Source: Aurantiacibacter xanthus (GTDB lineage Bacteria > Pseudomonadota > Alphaproteobacteria > Sphingomonadales > Sphingomonadaceae). Taken from it: a DNA stretch of 41,015 bases. The DNA lies in contig NZ_QXFM01000078.1 in assembly GCF_003584015.1 (NCBI RefSeq), positions 1 through 41,015 of the forward strand. Direction: 5' to 3'. The notes under the pieces were generated by a model that did no database searches, was not told the origin of the DNA, and was given only the letters and a program-made list of their open reading frames with translations. Positions 28,544 through 39,437 of this stretch are shown here, piece after piece; position 1 is the first letter of the stretch; each line of letters opens with the position of its first letter. A program made the position numbers and the translations under genes.

Positions 28544-28650
28544 GGGGGAATCTCCGGGAGAGGTCAGGGTCGAAGCCGGCGGACCCTCTCTCTCAAACCG
28601 CCAGGCTCACCCCGTCCCGGCCTTCCTCTTCCTCTCCGATGGCCCGGTGT
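28544..28650 (-). promoter_or_regulatory. Hairpin leader A, before the methyltransferase-helicase gene
   Basis: On the plus strand AGCCGGCGG (28574-28582) pairs with CCGCC-A-GGCT (28598-28607), leaving one bulged base. The 15-base loop contains CTCTCTCTC (GAGAGAGAG on the coding strand). The ribosome binding site CGGAGA follows about 20 bases later. Leader B (30807-30900) has the same stem plan with a different sequence, and leaders C and D are related. Confidence 0.6.
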
Positions 28651-28688
28651 GGATGCTTGCCGCATCCACCAGCCCCCAGACTGCGGCG

Positions 28689-28735
28689 TTGCCGTTCTCG
28701 CCGAAAAAACCTATAAGTGACCAACTACATGGTCA
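28689..28735 (+). promoter_or_regulatory. Promoter and operator of the phd/vapC pair
   Basis: TTGCCG (28689-28694), 17 bases and TATAAG (28712-28717) form a good sigma-70 type promoter. Immediately downstream the inverted repeat TGACCA-ACTACA-TGGTCA (28718-28735) covers the expected transcription start. It is a likely binding site for the antitoxin in self-repression. Confidence 0.65.
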
Positions 28736-28745
28736 GGAGCGAGTC

Positions 28746-28988
28746 ATGGATGGAATCAATCTGGCGGACGCCAAAGCCCATTTGAGCGAACTGGTCGATC
28801 GCGCTGCTGCTGGCGACACGATCGATATCCTGCGCCGTGGGAAGCCTGTGGCCCGCCTTGAGGCCGCCAAACGGCCGCGCAAGGCGATCGATGCCACCCG
28901 GCTGCGCCAACTGACCGATTCCCTGCCGGTCCAAAGCGAAAGCGCCGACAGGTTCACGCGCGCCATGCGCGATGGTGATCGTTACTGA
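28746..28988 (+). CDS. Phd/YefM-type antitoxin
   Basis: The 80-residue protein [20 protein letters not shown] has the prevent-host-death pattern, including [21 protein letters not shown]. The N-terminal part binds DNA and the C-terminal part wraps the toxin. AGGAGCGAGTC before the ATG fixes the start, and the stop overlaps the toxin start (TGATG). With the PIN toxin it forms a VapBC-type pair that helps retain the element. Confidence 0.92.
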
Positions 28989-36801: not shown

Positions 36802-38039
36802 GGCCAGCTCTCCTCGAGCCAGCCCCGGATCTGCTGGCGCATGATGCCGATCGGGCCATTGATCTCGGTGATACGGGCGTCCGGAGCGATGCAGCGCAGA
36901 TCGCGGAAGCCGTCGAGGAAGGCCCGCATCACCGCGATGTAGAGATGCCCGCCCGCGAGCGCGACGTCGGTGAATGGCCGCGTGCCGTGGTTGGAAAGCG
37001 AGGCGATCTGACAACCGGGCGAGTCGCCATAGGTATCGGGCATGCGCGCCGATGGCGGACGCGGCCAGCGCCGATTCATTCCGCCCGCGATCATGCGCTG
37101 GGCGAGATCGGGGGTCAGCCGGGCGTCATAATCCTCGATAGGCGAGCGGGAATCGAGAAAGCCGTAGCGGGCCGAGAGCACCGCGACCTTGACCCGCATC
37201 CGGTCGGGATTGACCGCGCGCACGGTCTGCCACAGCGGGCCATCGTAGCGGTCGATCGCATCGATCCAGCCTGTGTCCCGGCGCTTGGTCGCCGAGCAGG
37301 ACAGGATCAGCAGCCGGTGGGGTGCGCGCCAACCGCGACCCTCGGTCGGGGCGATCCCGCGCTCGACCAGGCGCACCGTGACCGCAGTTTCCTCAGCGAC
37401 CCGAGCAAGCCGCTCGATCAGCGCGAGATCGTCGCTGGAGCAGACCCCGCGCACATCGAAGGTGATACCTGGCTTCCCACCCGGATCGACAATCCGGTCG
37501 ACGAACAGGATGCCCTTGCCGAGATTGCCGCAAAAGAGCAGCGTGTCGGCGTCGCTGGGCACGCCGCCCGCATTGACCTTGCGGCGTCCGATCTGGCGGA
37601 ACGCTTCCTCGAAGGTGTTGGGGGTTATCGTGGCCCGGGGCTGGACACGGGCATGGAAACGCCAGCCCGGCCGGGTGATGTCGAGCTTGCCCACCTCGAT
37701 CTGGTGCAGGAAGTCCGCGAAACTATAGGGATCGGCCGGATAGGGACATTCCCGCCAGAGCGCACGGATCGTGCGGCGGCGTTCGTCCGGAATGGCGAAC
37801 AGGCGAGCGCGCGCCTTGCGCCATACGGCGGCGCGCTCATCCCGGCGGTCCTGCTGCTGGCGCGGCCACCATTCGGCGCGGCGGGCCATTTCCTCATCGA
37901 CGCTGTGTTGCCCAGCCGCGACCATGTCGGCGAACAGCGGCAGCGCCTCGCGCTCGCGGCGCTGTTTGGTGAGAAACGCCGCGCGTTTGCGCGACGTTTC
38001 TTCATAGGCGGTTGGCTTGGGCCATTTGCGAAAGCGCAT
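36798..38039 (-). CDS. Protein with a DUF6884-like domain
   Basis: The 413-residue protein has a basic, helical N-terminal 100 residues with many Arg (RRDERAAVWRKARARLF). A middle part follows with TLLFCGNLGKGILFVDRIVD, then a DUF6884-like domain: APHRLLILSCSATKRRDTGW, YDGPLWQTVRA and KVAVLSARYGFLDSRSPIED. Proteins with this SCS.TK plus SARYG pattern are known in phages and plasmids and have been linked to base-modification-like or YaaA-like folds. That link is weak. It is co-transcribed with its neighbours, ending in a GTGA overlap. Confidence 0.6.
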   Translation of the reverse strand: MRFRKWPKPTAYEETSRKRAAFLTKQRREREALPLFADMVAAGQHSVDEEMARRAEWWPRQQQDRRDERAAVWRKARARLFAIPDERRRTIRALWRECPYPADPYSFADFLHQIEVGKLDITRPGWRFHARVQPRATITPNTFEEAFRQIGRRKVNAGGVPSDADTLLFCGNLGKGILFVDRIVDPGGKPGITFDVRGVCSSDDLALIERLARVAEETAVTVRLVERGIAPTEGRGWRAPHRLLILSCSATKRRDTGWIDAIDRYDGPLWQTVRAVNPDRMRVKVAVLSARYGFLDSRSPIEDYDARLTPDLAQRMIAGGMNRRWPRPPSARMPDTYGDSPGCQIASLSNHGTRPFTDVALAGGHLYIAVMRAFLDGFRDLRCIAPDARITEINGPIGIMRQQIRGWLEESWP

Positions 38040-38042
38040 CGC

Positions 38043-38408
38043 TCAGCCCTCCCGCTCTAGCCGAGCGATGATGCGCTCAGCCGCCCGGATGCCGCGGGCT
38101 ATGTCGGCGATATCGATCCACACCGAGATCGGCGCCGTCGTCTCGAACAGGATGTCGCGCTCGACGCCAAGCTGGAGCCCGACGTCGAGACCTTGCAATT
38201 CGGAAAGGCTGAAGGTGCCATAGTCGACGCAATCCATGTCGAGATCGGCGATGCCGTGCAGGGTATCGCCATCGGGTTCGAGCAAGGTCGCAAGCCACAC
38301 GCCCGCGCCCACGGGGTTGAAGAATTTCGCGACCGGCAGATGGTCAGCGCTTGGGTCGGCCGCATTGGCGATGAGCTGCGCGCGCAGCTCCGGGGTCAGG
38401 AGGATTAT
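38043..38408 (-). CDS. DUF2958 family protein, probable non-standard ATA start
   Basis: The reading frame gives IILLTPELRAQLIANAAD, then HLPVAKFFNPVGAGVWLATL, EPDGDTLHGIADLDMDCVDY and GTFSLSELQGLDV, a good DUF2958 match (unknown role, common on conjugative elements). No ATG, GTG or TTG lies upstream of the conserved head. The codon ATA at 38408 has GGAGGG five bases upstream and overlaps the ardC stop as ATAA, where an ATGA junction would be expected. CTG 38399 is another option. GTG 38312 would remove the conserved first 32 residues. Confidence 0.75.
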   Translation of the reverse strand: MILLTPELRAQLIANAADPSADHLPVAKFFNPVGAGVWLATLLEPDGDTLHGIADLDMDCVDYGTFSLSELQGLDVGLQLGVERDILFETTAPISVWIDIADIARGIRAAERIIARLEREG

Positions 38409-39355
38409 GCCGCCCTCCGTTCGATCAGAGCGCCGCGGGCCTCCGCTCCTGCGGCATCGCGGAAGGCGAGCAGATAGTCGGCCGCCCTCGACGCAGCGCT
38501 GGCGGCGCGAACGATCGCGCGATCATCCGCCCGCATGATGTCGAGCCAAGCGCCGATATAGTCGGAATGGCGGACAGTGGGTTCGATGCCGAGGGCAGCG
38601 CAGACGAAGGCGCCAGCCATCTCCGCGACCAGTTCCTCGCGTCCATATGTCTCCGAACCGAAGCGGCCGCTCTGATCCCGGTCGAGGCGACCCCGGCTGC
38701 CCGTCCAGTGACCGAGTTCGTGAAAAGCCGTTCGATTCCAATTGATTGGATCGAAGTAGCGCGAGGGAGGTGGGACGCAGACCCGGTCGTTCGCCACGTC
38801 ATAATAAGCCTGATCTCCGCCAATACGGAAATCCGCACCCGTCGCTGTGATCAGAGCTTCCGCTTCGGGAAGGATCTGATCGGGATCGGGTCGCGGGATC
38901 TCGGCGGTATAGGCGTCAGGCAGGCCTTCGCACTGGTCCAGGTTGAACACCGTGAAGCGTTTCAGGAACGGTATCGTGCCTGGAGTGCGGCCTTCCTCGG
39001 CAGCCTGGCGCCGTTCGTTGCCGGGGGTGAAGCGATGGGCGTAAACGACGGTGGTGCCGGTCGCGCCCTTGCAGACATTGCCACCGAGTTCGAGCGCCTG
39101 GCGGAAGGTCAGGAAAGCGTTGCTCGAAAAGCCCCGCGAGACCACCGCGTGCCACAGAATGAGAATATTGATCCCGGAATAGCAGCGGTTGCTCGACGCG
39201 TTGTGCGGCATCTGGAGCGGGGCCTTGGCCGATGCCCAAGGCTGGACCCAGGGAACGCGACCGGCTTCCAGCTCGGCAATGATCTTCTCGGTGATGTCCT
39301 GATAGAGGGTGGGCCGGTCATGACCTGCCGGCCGGGATTTGAACTTGCGTGCCAT
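38405..39355 (-). CDS. ardC: ArdC-family antirestriction protein with metalloprotease motif
   Basis: The 316-residue protein has the ArdC N-terminal single-strand-binding domain (LYQDITEKIIAELEAGRVPW, NRCYSGINILILW, FLTFRQALELGGNV). A C-terminal zincin-like domain carries HELGH (212-216) and a downstream Glu in REELVAEMAGAF as the likely third ligand. ArdC proteins protect incoming DNA from restriction. GGAGACATGCG precedes the ATG. It heads an operon with DUF2958 and further unknown genes, and follows hairpin leader D. Confidence 0.93.
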   Translation of the reverse strand: MARKFKSRPAGHDRPTLYQDITEKIIAELEAGRVPWVQPWASAKAPLQMPHNASSNRCYSGINILILWHAVVSRGFSSNAFLTFRQALELGGNVCKGATGTTVVYAHRFTPGNERRQAAEEGRTPGTIPFLKRFTVFNLDQCEGLPDAYTAEIPRPDPDQILPEAEALITATGADFRIGGDQAYYDVANDRVCVPPPSRYFDPINWNRTAFHELGHWTGSRGRLDRDQSGRFGSETYGREELVAEMAGAFVCAALGIEPTVRHSDYIGAWLDIMRADDRAIVRAASAASRAADYLLAFRDAAGAEARGALIERRAA

Positions 39356-39437
39356 CGCATGTCTCCGCGACGGGTCGGTCCCGAGCCTCTCTCGCGACGC
39401 TCAACCCGTCACGAAAACCCGGCTTTCCTCTCACTCT
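39356..39437 (-). promoter_or_regulatory. Hairpin leader D, before ardC
   Basis: GACGGGT (39369-39375) pairs with ACCCGTC (39404-39410), and inner GAGC (39383-39386) with GCTC (39399-39402). CTCTCTC is in the loop. It is close to leader C in sequence and spacing. Behind it a second hairpin-rich stretch (GGGGGCGGCTGGCCCCC near 39451) leads to the divergent SRAP gene. Confidence 0.62.

Follow-up and report, generated by a model that had tools for sequence, protein, structure and literature searches.

A family of hairpin leaders upstream of establishment genes in alphaproteobacterial conjugative elements, probably selected as coding-strand RNA

INTRODUCTION

Genes for surviving entry into a recipient presumably have to be expressed quickly and for a short time, and accounts of how this is achieved come from F-like and some Bacillus plasmids. 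Several kinds of structured sequence may be compared in this respect: mRNA leaders that hide the Shine-Dalgarno sequence (SD), such as riboswitches, ribosomal protein leaders, and RNA thermometers; the put antiterminator RNAs of HK022, which are found close to early promoters and are not known to abut SDs; and Frpo-like single-strand promoters, which fold in the transferred strand (T-strand) as their template. Here we follow up four hairpin leaders, A to D, noticed in a first-pass annotation of a 41,015-nucleotide stretch of Aurantiacibacter xanthus DNA (assembly GCF_003584015.1, contig NZ_QXFM01000078.1, positions 1 to 41,015; the whole stretch is called the window below), together with a second conserved element, U, that lies upstream of leader D.

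The closest described analogue of these leaders appears to be EGeRS1 of the Bacillus conjugative plasmid pLS20. In the account of EGeRS1 given by PMC8708921, repeated structured sequences precede ardC and other establishment operons, and EGeRS1-B, when in its native orientation, was shown to block expression driven by a promoter upstream of it, an effect that was absent or much smaller after reversal; the same account reports that the tested copy had no constitutive promoter, argues against single-strand promoters, and leaves the mechanism unexplained. Frpo promoters themselves are treated in PMC11541004 and PMC12826799, and further background is provided by work on polyvalent ArdC/ParB proteins (PMC5512222), on conserved RlxS-type integrative and conjugative elements (ICEs) (PMC8627217), and on the zygotic induction of RP4 (PMC7314908).

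RESULTS

Judged by their sequences, leaders A, B, C, and D make up one real family, which falls into two types.

28541..28637, minus strand: leader A, type II, precedes the Strawberry-notch helicase gene and includes its ATG
30804..30902, minus strand: leader B, type II, precedes the gene of a 172-amino-acid protein, then DUF7007
35144..35230, minus strand: leader C, type I, precedes the ParB-like gene; hairpin with predicted paired ribosome-binding site at about 35152-35208
39353..39439, minus strand: leader D, type I, precedes ardC; hairpin with predicted paired ribosome-binding site at about 39361-39418

As the first-pass annotation had it, all four lie directly before minus-strand start codons (ATGs at 28543, 30806, 35146, and 39355), and each has its parts in the order purine motif, hairpin, GGAGA, and ATG, 87 to 99 nucleotides counted to the ATG. 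The sequence that had been reported as common to B, C, and D, CCTCTCACTCT, is exact in all three when written as its reverse complement, AGAGTGAGAGG; with up to one mismatch allowed, these are the only three matches in the window, where 0.53 would be expected, and leader A has AGAGGAAGAGG in its place. Leaders C and D, which BLAST aligns at 76%, share GGTTTTCGTGACGGG as well. The GAGAGAG motif and the GGAGA ribosome site are present in all four leaders, and single-sequence RNA folding gave z scores against shuffles of -2.2 for B, -4.5 for C, and -3.3 for D; the reported GAGAGAG loop needs correction in C and D, where the first GAG is paired and belongs to the inner stem of the consensus.

Two models built without A and B recovered both of these leaders, which bears out the proposed relatedness. 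Covariance model R1, from an alignment (A2) of C and D with eight leaders of five plasmids, matched B with 27.3 bits (E = 6e-5) and A with 19.8 bits (E = 0.006), both matches spanning model positions 1 to 88 and ending at the ATG; it scores D at 81 bits, yet D is among its own sequences. R2, a sequence-only model of 16 leaders that other elements carry ahead of a Strawberry-notch helicase gene (locus L035 was excluded as a near copy of L019), matched A with 53 bits (E = 1.2e-15) and B with 51.5 bits (E = 3.6e-15) and gave partial matches to D (18.4 bits) and C (13.4 bits). From these results, we assign A and B to a longer form, type II, and C and D to type I, of one and the same family.

The pairing of the leaders carries a strand preference. 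G-U pairs are tolerated in RNA, and each of them, viewed from the complementary strand, is an A-C mismatch, so that a structure of the coding-strand RNA should keep G-U and avoid A-C. Over the 16 pairs of 66 type I leaders we counted 863 Watson-Crick, 145 G-U, and 19 A-C pairs on the coding strand, while the leaders of the ParB loci described below (131 distinct of 141 rows) gave 1736, 271, and 29, and a set of 50 non-redundant leaders gave 599, 132, and 6; related sequences are not independent, and these numbers are therefore not probabilities. The 50-leader set consists of 78 regions before ParB-like genes that were reduced at 85% identity and aligned by sequence without structure, and mostly-gap columns were excluded from the pair counts for this set and for element U. 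Its consensus energy is -20.05 on the coding strand versus -8.19 on the complement. The minimum free energy of single leaders is likewise lower on the coding strand than on the complement in 65/66 type I and 16/19 type II leaders, and the mean fold z of type I is -3.08 as RNA versus -1.55 for the complement as DNA, the latter still better than shuffles.

Covariation points in the same direction. In a MAFFT alignment (A5) of 58 of the 66 type I leaders, both partners vary at 12 of 21 pairs, compared with 7.5 in shuffled alignments (2/500 reach 12), and the covariation score is 0.318 versus 0.213 when shuffled (0/500). While GACGGG/CCCGTC is nearly invariant, the inner stem varies in sequence with its pairing kept. 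A conserved RNA-sense structure is thus seen with covariation in type I and by folding alone in type II, and the further copies in related elements for which the first-pass annotation had suggested a covariance-model search proved to be many and to carry compensatory changes. Taken together, these data suggest that the leaders are selected as coding-strand RNA and that the control they exert is probably at the RNA level, on translation.

The SD of type I leaders is predicted to pair with a pyrimidine stretch just before GTGACGGG, and at two positions of the SD-covering pairs C and U exchange opposite G with pairing preserved. The mean probability that the SD is unpaired is 0.16 in type I (n = 66) versus 0.33 in 184 control open reading frames (ORFs) (p = 4e-8), a recognisable SD being found in 184 of 493 control ORFs and in 16 of 19 type II leaders. 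Over the 70 nucleotides upstream of the leaders, a conserved promoter motif was not apparent, every position having at most 0.55 bits, and a scan of positions 28400-39800 for sigma-70-like sites gave none where 1.8 were expected, which was a consensus scan of unfolded DNA from a group whose promoters may differ. Distances to upstream ORFs were set aside, as long chance ORFs are frequent in this GC-rich DNA. Given that no promoter motif or site was seen and that the SD of type I is predicted to be paired, a translation-limiting mRNA leader is preferred.

The leaders occupy a fixed spot directly upstream of the start codons of several non-homologous gene clusters. An alignment (A3) of 93 leader rows was drawn from 40 sources, and all of its 66 strongest matches, which include the ten sequences of R1, end at an ATG. 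The proteins behind the 93 matches are ParB-like (34), DUF932-like (13), ArdC (13), and helicases (6), together with smaller groups that include an AlpA-like regulator and an SNase-like nuclease. BLAST labels over 207 rows (both sets, the second having been collected by a ParB search) comprise 109 ParB-like, 51 ArdC, 27 DUF932-like, and 20 other proteins, the label DUF932 standing for plasmid annotation plus a Pfam match below the cut-off. A type II leader precedes each of the 19 helicase genes examined (the window and 18 other elements, Dyella included); some of these leaders were recognised by eye or by motif, and the count leaves out L037, whose gene start is beyond its DNA, and the 80 ParB loci. 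The latter are the best 80 of at least 550 relatives returned by a ParB-like protein search, that is, closest relatives and not a random sample, with some leaders near-identical. A leader stands at the start of the ParB-like gene in all 78 of them that have upstream DNA (L070 and L086 have none), and the 141 leader matches in these loci are all on the coding strand.

The family is widespread and apparently undescribed. BLAST with leader C against plasmids returned 69 records, among them Rhizobium, Bradyrhizobium, Paracoccus, and Sphingopyxis; among the 40 listed of these 69, a ParB-type protein is annotated beneath the match in 19, no feature in 17, and 4 are unannotated records. Phage records gave zero matches to leader C at E 1e-5. 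R1 matched 27 of 385 genomes (24 of 276 genera) in the class, counting that of the window, with 58 matches that cluster on one strand, and in a sample of the phylum it matched 34 of 398 genomes, all 34 belonging to the same class as the window. Only one of 20 relatives of the window's genome had a match, from which we conclude that mobile elements carry the leaders along. R1 matched 2 of 229 genomes in the class that holds Dyella, a genus assigned to Gammaproteobacteria by NCBI. The Dyella genome has two type I leaders along with genes for ArdC, a ParB-like protein, a helicase, and a Toprim protein; the other match (G842, 28.5 bits) was judged false, as it ends off any start codon and opens a short frame. 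With one real and one weak match in 229 genomes outside the window's class, false matches are rare. In Dyella sp. AtDHG13 (L130/L147), the ArdC-ParB-helicase module has one type II leader besides the two of type I, and cross-class transfer of this module is likely.

A scan of the window against Rfam 15 (4227 families, E ≤ 1) gave one match, away from the leaders, and at loci L019, L035, and L040 (E ≤ 10) the sole match was a sub-threshold microRNA at one leader (27.2 bits against a gathering score of 51, E = 0.54). Searches of open-access literature gave no earlier description of these leaders; a 2017 survey of candidate structured RNAs may mention them. Other candidate relationships were rejected: Rfam had no match at those three loci to a "DUF3085 RNA motif" that had been considered for the leaders, Pfam did not match the 128-amino-acid protein behind the L035 leader that had been taken for DUF3085, and a search with Rfam DUF3800-IV gave nothing. 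A possible leader peptide, seen by eye in D as the short ORF GTG ACG GGT TGA, was rejected because the ORF is not conserved in C, and within the window there is no candidate trans RNA complementary to AGAGTGAGAGG with up to one mismatch.

Many modules have a second conserved element, U, with three hairpins, ahead of their first leader; farther upstream, nothing conserved was seen by eye.

39443..39527, minus strand: element U, 85 nucleotides, three hairpins, just upstream of the module's first leader

By a strict pattern, U is found with 37 of the 207 leader rows (36 distinct copies), and all 37 of these leaders are the first on their strand in the DNA examined. The genes behind them are ardC in 24 cases, DUF932-like in 11, and other frames in 2, with none of the 109 ParB-like genes among them. 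The stems of the 36 copies comprise 543 Watson-Crick, 5 G-U, and 9 A-C pairs, that is, compensatory changes with almost no wobble, and the complement folds better in 25 and worse in 10 of the 36 copies (p = 6e-4). The hairpins of U are thus kept without a coding-strand preference, as would be expected of a hairpin under selection at the DNA level, and U is a better candidate than the leaders for any single-strand promoter or priming site. The window's single copy of U showed no sigma-70-like site in the scan. BLAST found U in 26 plasmid records, and of four that were opened, a leader directly follows in three; at Caulobacter locus L144, U has no leader after it. On a 6.5-kb Sphingomonas parapaucimobilis plasmid (L142, 3270-3430), U and a type I leader precede an unannotated frame that begins like DUF932-type genes. 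In the window, a gene for an SOS response associated peptidase (SRAP; 39588-40265, plus strand) adjoins U on the opposite strand, and SRAP genes are likewise annotated close to the module at plasmid loci L003 and L006.

The genes of the module are syntenic across related elements, and the window contains the following further features.

38405..39355, minus strand: ArdC (ArdcN and MPTase-PolyVal; Pfam E = 1.6e-40 and 2.2e-48)
33014..35146, minus strand: ParB-like protein, 710 amino acids (best E = 5e-16 with NCBIfam ParB models, whose cut-offs were not reached; no match in the Pfam scan)
32942-32922: terminator-like site after the ParB-like gene
30288..30806, minus strand: 172-amino-acid protein, first gene behind leader B (no match in the Pfam scan)
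29478-29453: terminator-like site after DUF7007
24209..28543, minus strand: Strawberry-notch-type helicase, 1444 amino acids (AAA_34, E = 7e-121; Helicase_C_4, E = 2.5e-96), with a weak methyltransferase match just under the Pfam cut-off (MTS, E = 1e-4)
23142-24212, minus strand: Toprim/DUF7146 protein (Pfam), syntenic in related elements
21844-22920, minus strand: YAcAr protein (Pfam), syntenic in related elements
12535..12547, minus strand: putative origin of transfer (oriT)-like block GCAAGATAAAAGG, 138 nucleotides before rlxS
10631..12409, minus strand: RlxS-type relaxase (DUF3363; Pfam E = 5e-85)

An rlxS gene was detected in 17 elements, namely, the window, L005, and 15 of 20 loci that were extended by 20 kb; RlxS was not found in the other 5 of these 20. 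In all 17, the leaders are upstream of rlxS and read towards it, and in 16 of the 17 a GCAAGATAAAAGG-like block (up to three mismatches), a candidate oriT, precedes rlxS, mostly about 130 nucleotides away. At L003, which lacks RlxS, the opposite strand bears type IV secretion genes upstream, and the layout is therefore not universal. Where the relaxase gene enters last, which the treatment of leading regions in PMC11541004 gives as typical, the leaders would be in the leading region and the T-strand would be their template; a leading region, which the first-pass annotation had brought in by comparison with F-type plasmids, is compatible with this position.

Other genes of the window include an AbiL-like defence pair between rlxS and a traG-type gene (8724-10555, minus strand), which consists of an RloB-like protein and an AAA ATPase (PADLOC AbiLii, E = 2e-8, and AbiLi, E = 1.5e-74), and a Phd/YefM-type antitoxin gene with a PIN-domain gene, which are placed, on the other strand, in the interval from DUF7007 to leader A (28764-29410, plus strand). 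ParA-like and RPA replication initiator genes (14986-16675, minus strand) adjoin the conjugation genes, which would fit either a plasmid or an ICE that replicates.

DISCUSSION

Our results lead us to propose, with a probability of roughly 0.6, that the leaders are one family of cis-acting elements of the 5' untranslated region that would control the start of translation of establishment genes in alphaproteobacterial conjugative elements. They share a build of fixed order, in which the conserved purine motif AGAGNGAGAGG comes first and is followed by a long, imperfect hairpin whose apex is GAGAGAG, then by the SD and the ATG. In a resting element, the hairpin would keep read-through transcripts of these genes poorly translated until it is opened by some common signal, most likely a putative element- or host-encoded factor that binds GA-rich motifs. 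ArdC, DUF932-like, ParB-like, and helicase proteins might in this way be switched together, most usefully on entry into a recipient. The occurrence of the leaders before several unrelated entry genes points to an undescribed joint control of these genes; of the two forms in which the first-pass annotation had offered such co-regulation, the structured RNA finds support here, while the operator is argued against by the strand asymmetry.

Several observations weigh against this proposal. Leader A, to which a stem-loop had been ascribed as to the other three, folds as RNA no better than shuffles (z = +0.84), and the predicted folds of A and B, described earlier as one architecture, are not the same in detail. 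On the MAFFT alignment of type II leaders, RNAalifold gave zero consensus pairs, for which reason a structural model of this type could not be built and R2 is sequence-only. The SD of type II is as accessible as in control ORFs (0.37, n = 16, p = 0.63), and hiding of the SD is therefore not a family-wide property. Two of the 66 ATGs at which the strongest matches end open frames of just 29 and 20 codons (L036 and L006:19395), and kinship among the sequences inflates every pair count. Moreover, a terminator-like hairpin stands 7 to 31 nucleotides before the leader in 5 of 19 type II loci (L011, L013, L016, L017, and L028), compared with 0.4 in shuffles, which means that transcripts either read through, as would suit antitermination, or start very near the leader; at these loci, antitermination or a promoter at the leader fits as well.

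These terminators are one reason to consider that the leaders act on transcription, as a put-like antiterminator or an attenuator whose nascent RNA lets RNA polymerase pass the terminators between genes. Such a role would draw on the same pair counts and folding on the coding strand, and it would suit both the recurrence of leaders along the module and the terminator-like sites after the window's ParB-like gene and DUF7007. We nevertheless regard it as unlikely: type I leaders show no enrichment of terminators ahead of them (7/206, against 10.8 in shuffles), the reverse strand has such hairpins in 2 of 19 type II loci, the scanned window DNA holds 11 terminator-like sites against 6.8 in shuffles, and antitermination needs neither the abutment of the ATG at a fixed distance nor the pairing of the SD in type I. 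That same pairing would be left unexplained if the leaders were structural mRNA elements without a switch, such as message stabilisers or ribosome standby or enhancer sites that work in many hosts, and we hold this to be rather improbable, even though the conserved purine motif at the 5' end is SD-like and the family occurs over many hosts.

At the DNA level, the first-pass annotation had favored Frpo-like promoters, in which the leader would fold in the entering T-strand and be transcribed ahead of second-strand synthesis. The setting would suit them, with the module upstream of rlxS and transcribed towards it in 17/17 elements, an oriT-like block in 16/17, the T-strand as template if the relaxase gene enters last, and a gene content that suits leading regions as portrayed in PMC11541004; the complement of the leaders also folds slightly better than shuffles (mean z of -1.55 as DNA). 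However, pairing is conserved on the coding strand and not on the template, which we infer to be the transferred strand, and no upstream promoter motif or sigma-70-like site was seen. The G-U to A-C ratios of 145:19 in the 66 and 132:6 in the 50 leaders argue against a promoter folded in the template strand, and we now consider this origin of the leaders very improbable. An inverted-repeat operator that binds a repressor in double-stranded DNA seems to us the least credible of all; the near invariance of GACGGG/CCCGTC would fit it, but selection on an operator is blind to strand and does not predict the asymmetry, and the inner stem varies in sequence while its pairing persists.

Control of translation by the leaders could be combined with a function of U in a two-layer entry switch, in which U, folded on the entering strand at the module's head, would serve as promoter or primer site for only as long as the DNA stays single-stranded, and the RNA leaders would silence translation of read-through transcripts until the recipient is reached. 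We offer this as a tentative idea that is, on balance, doubtful; if true, anti-restriction, ParB-like, and helicase proteins would be made in a pulse at arrival alone. The comparison of strands separates RNA-level from DNA-level hairpins in entry regions, and U provides an internal contrast for it. A leader family that spans the class also provides a sequence mark by which establishment genes of unknown function could be traced in plasmids and ICEs of alphaproteobacteria, and the leaders are short enough for reporter tests.

Among known systems, the put RNAs of HK022 resemble the leaders as structured RNAs that recur within one genetic element, possibly near terminators, and differ in that the leaders abut SDs. 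With SD-hiding mRNA leaders they have in common a conserved coding-strand hairpin by the start codon, which in type I pairs the SD; unlike such leaders in general, one family is common to several non-homologous genes of one mobile element, and those of the window have no Rfam match. Copies of a stem-loop before entry genes, in what is likely a leading region, are also features of the Frpo/ssi sequences of F and ColIb-P9 as PMC11541004 presents them, from which the leaders are set apart by their apparent selection as coding-strand RNA and by the absence of a visible sigma-70-like -35/-10 site. The likeness to EGeRS1, as portrayed in PMC8708921, is one of description. EGeRS1 belongs to a different phylum and measures 400 to 600 bp, with about 325 nucleotides conserved and a predicted branching structure, whereas the leaders are 88 to 100 nucleotides with one long hairpin, to which U adds some 75 to 85 nucleotides before some first genes alone; the transferred strand is the non-template strand in pLS20 and would be the template here. 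What the two have in common is their repetition immediately before ardC and further establishment genes of a single element.

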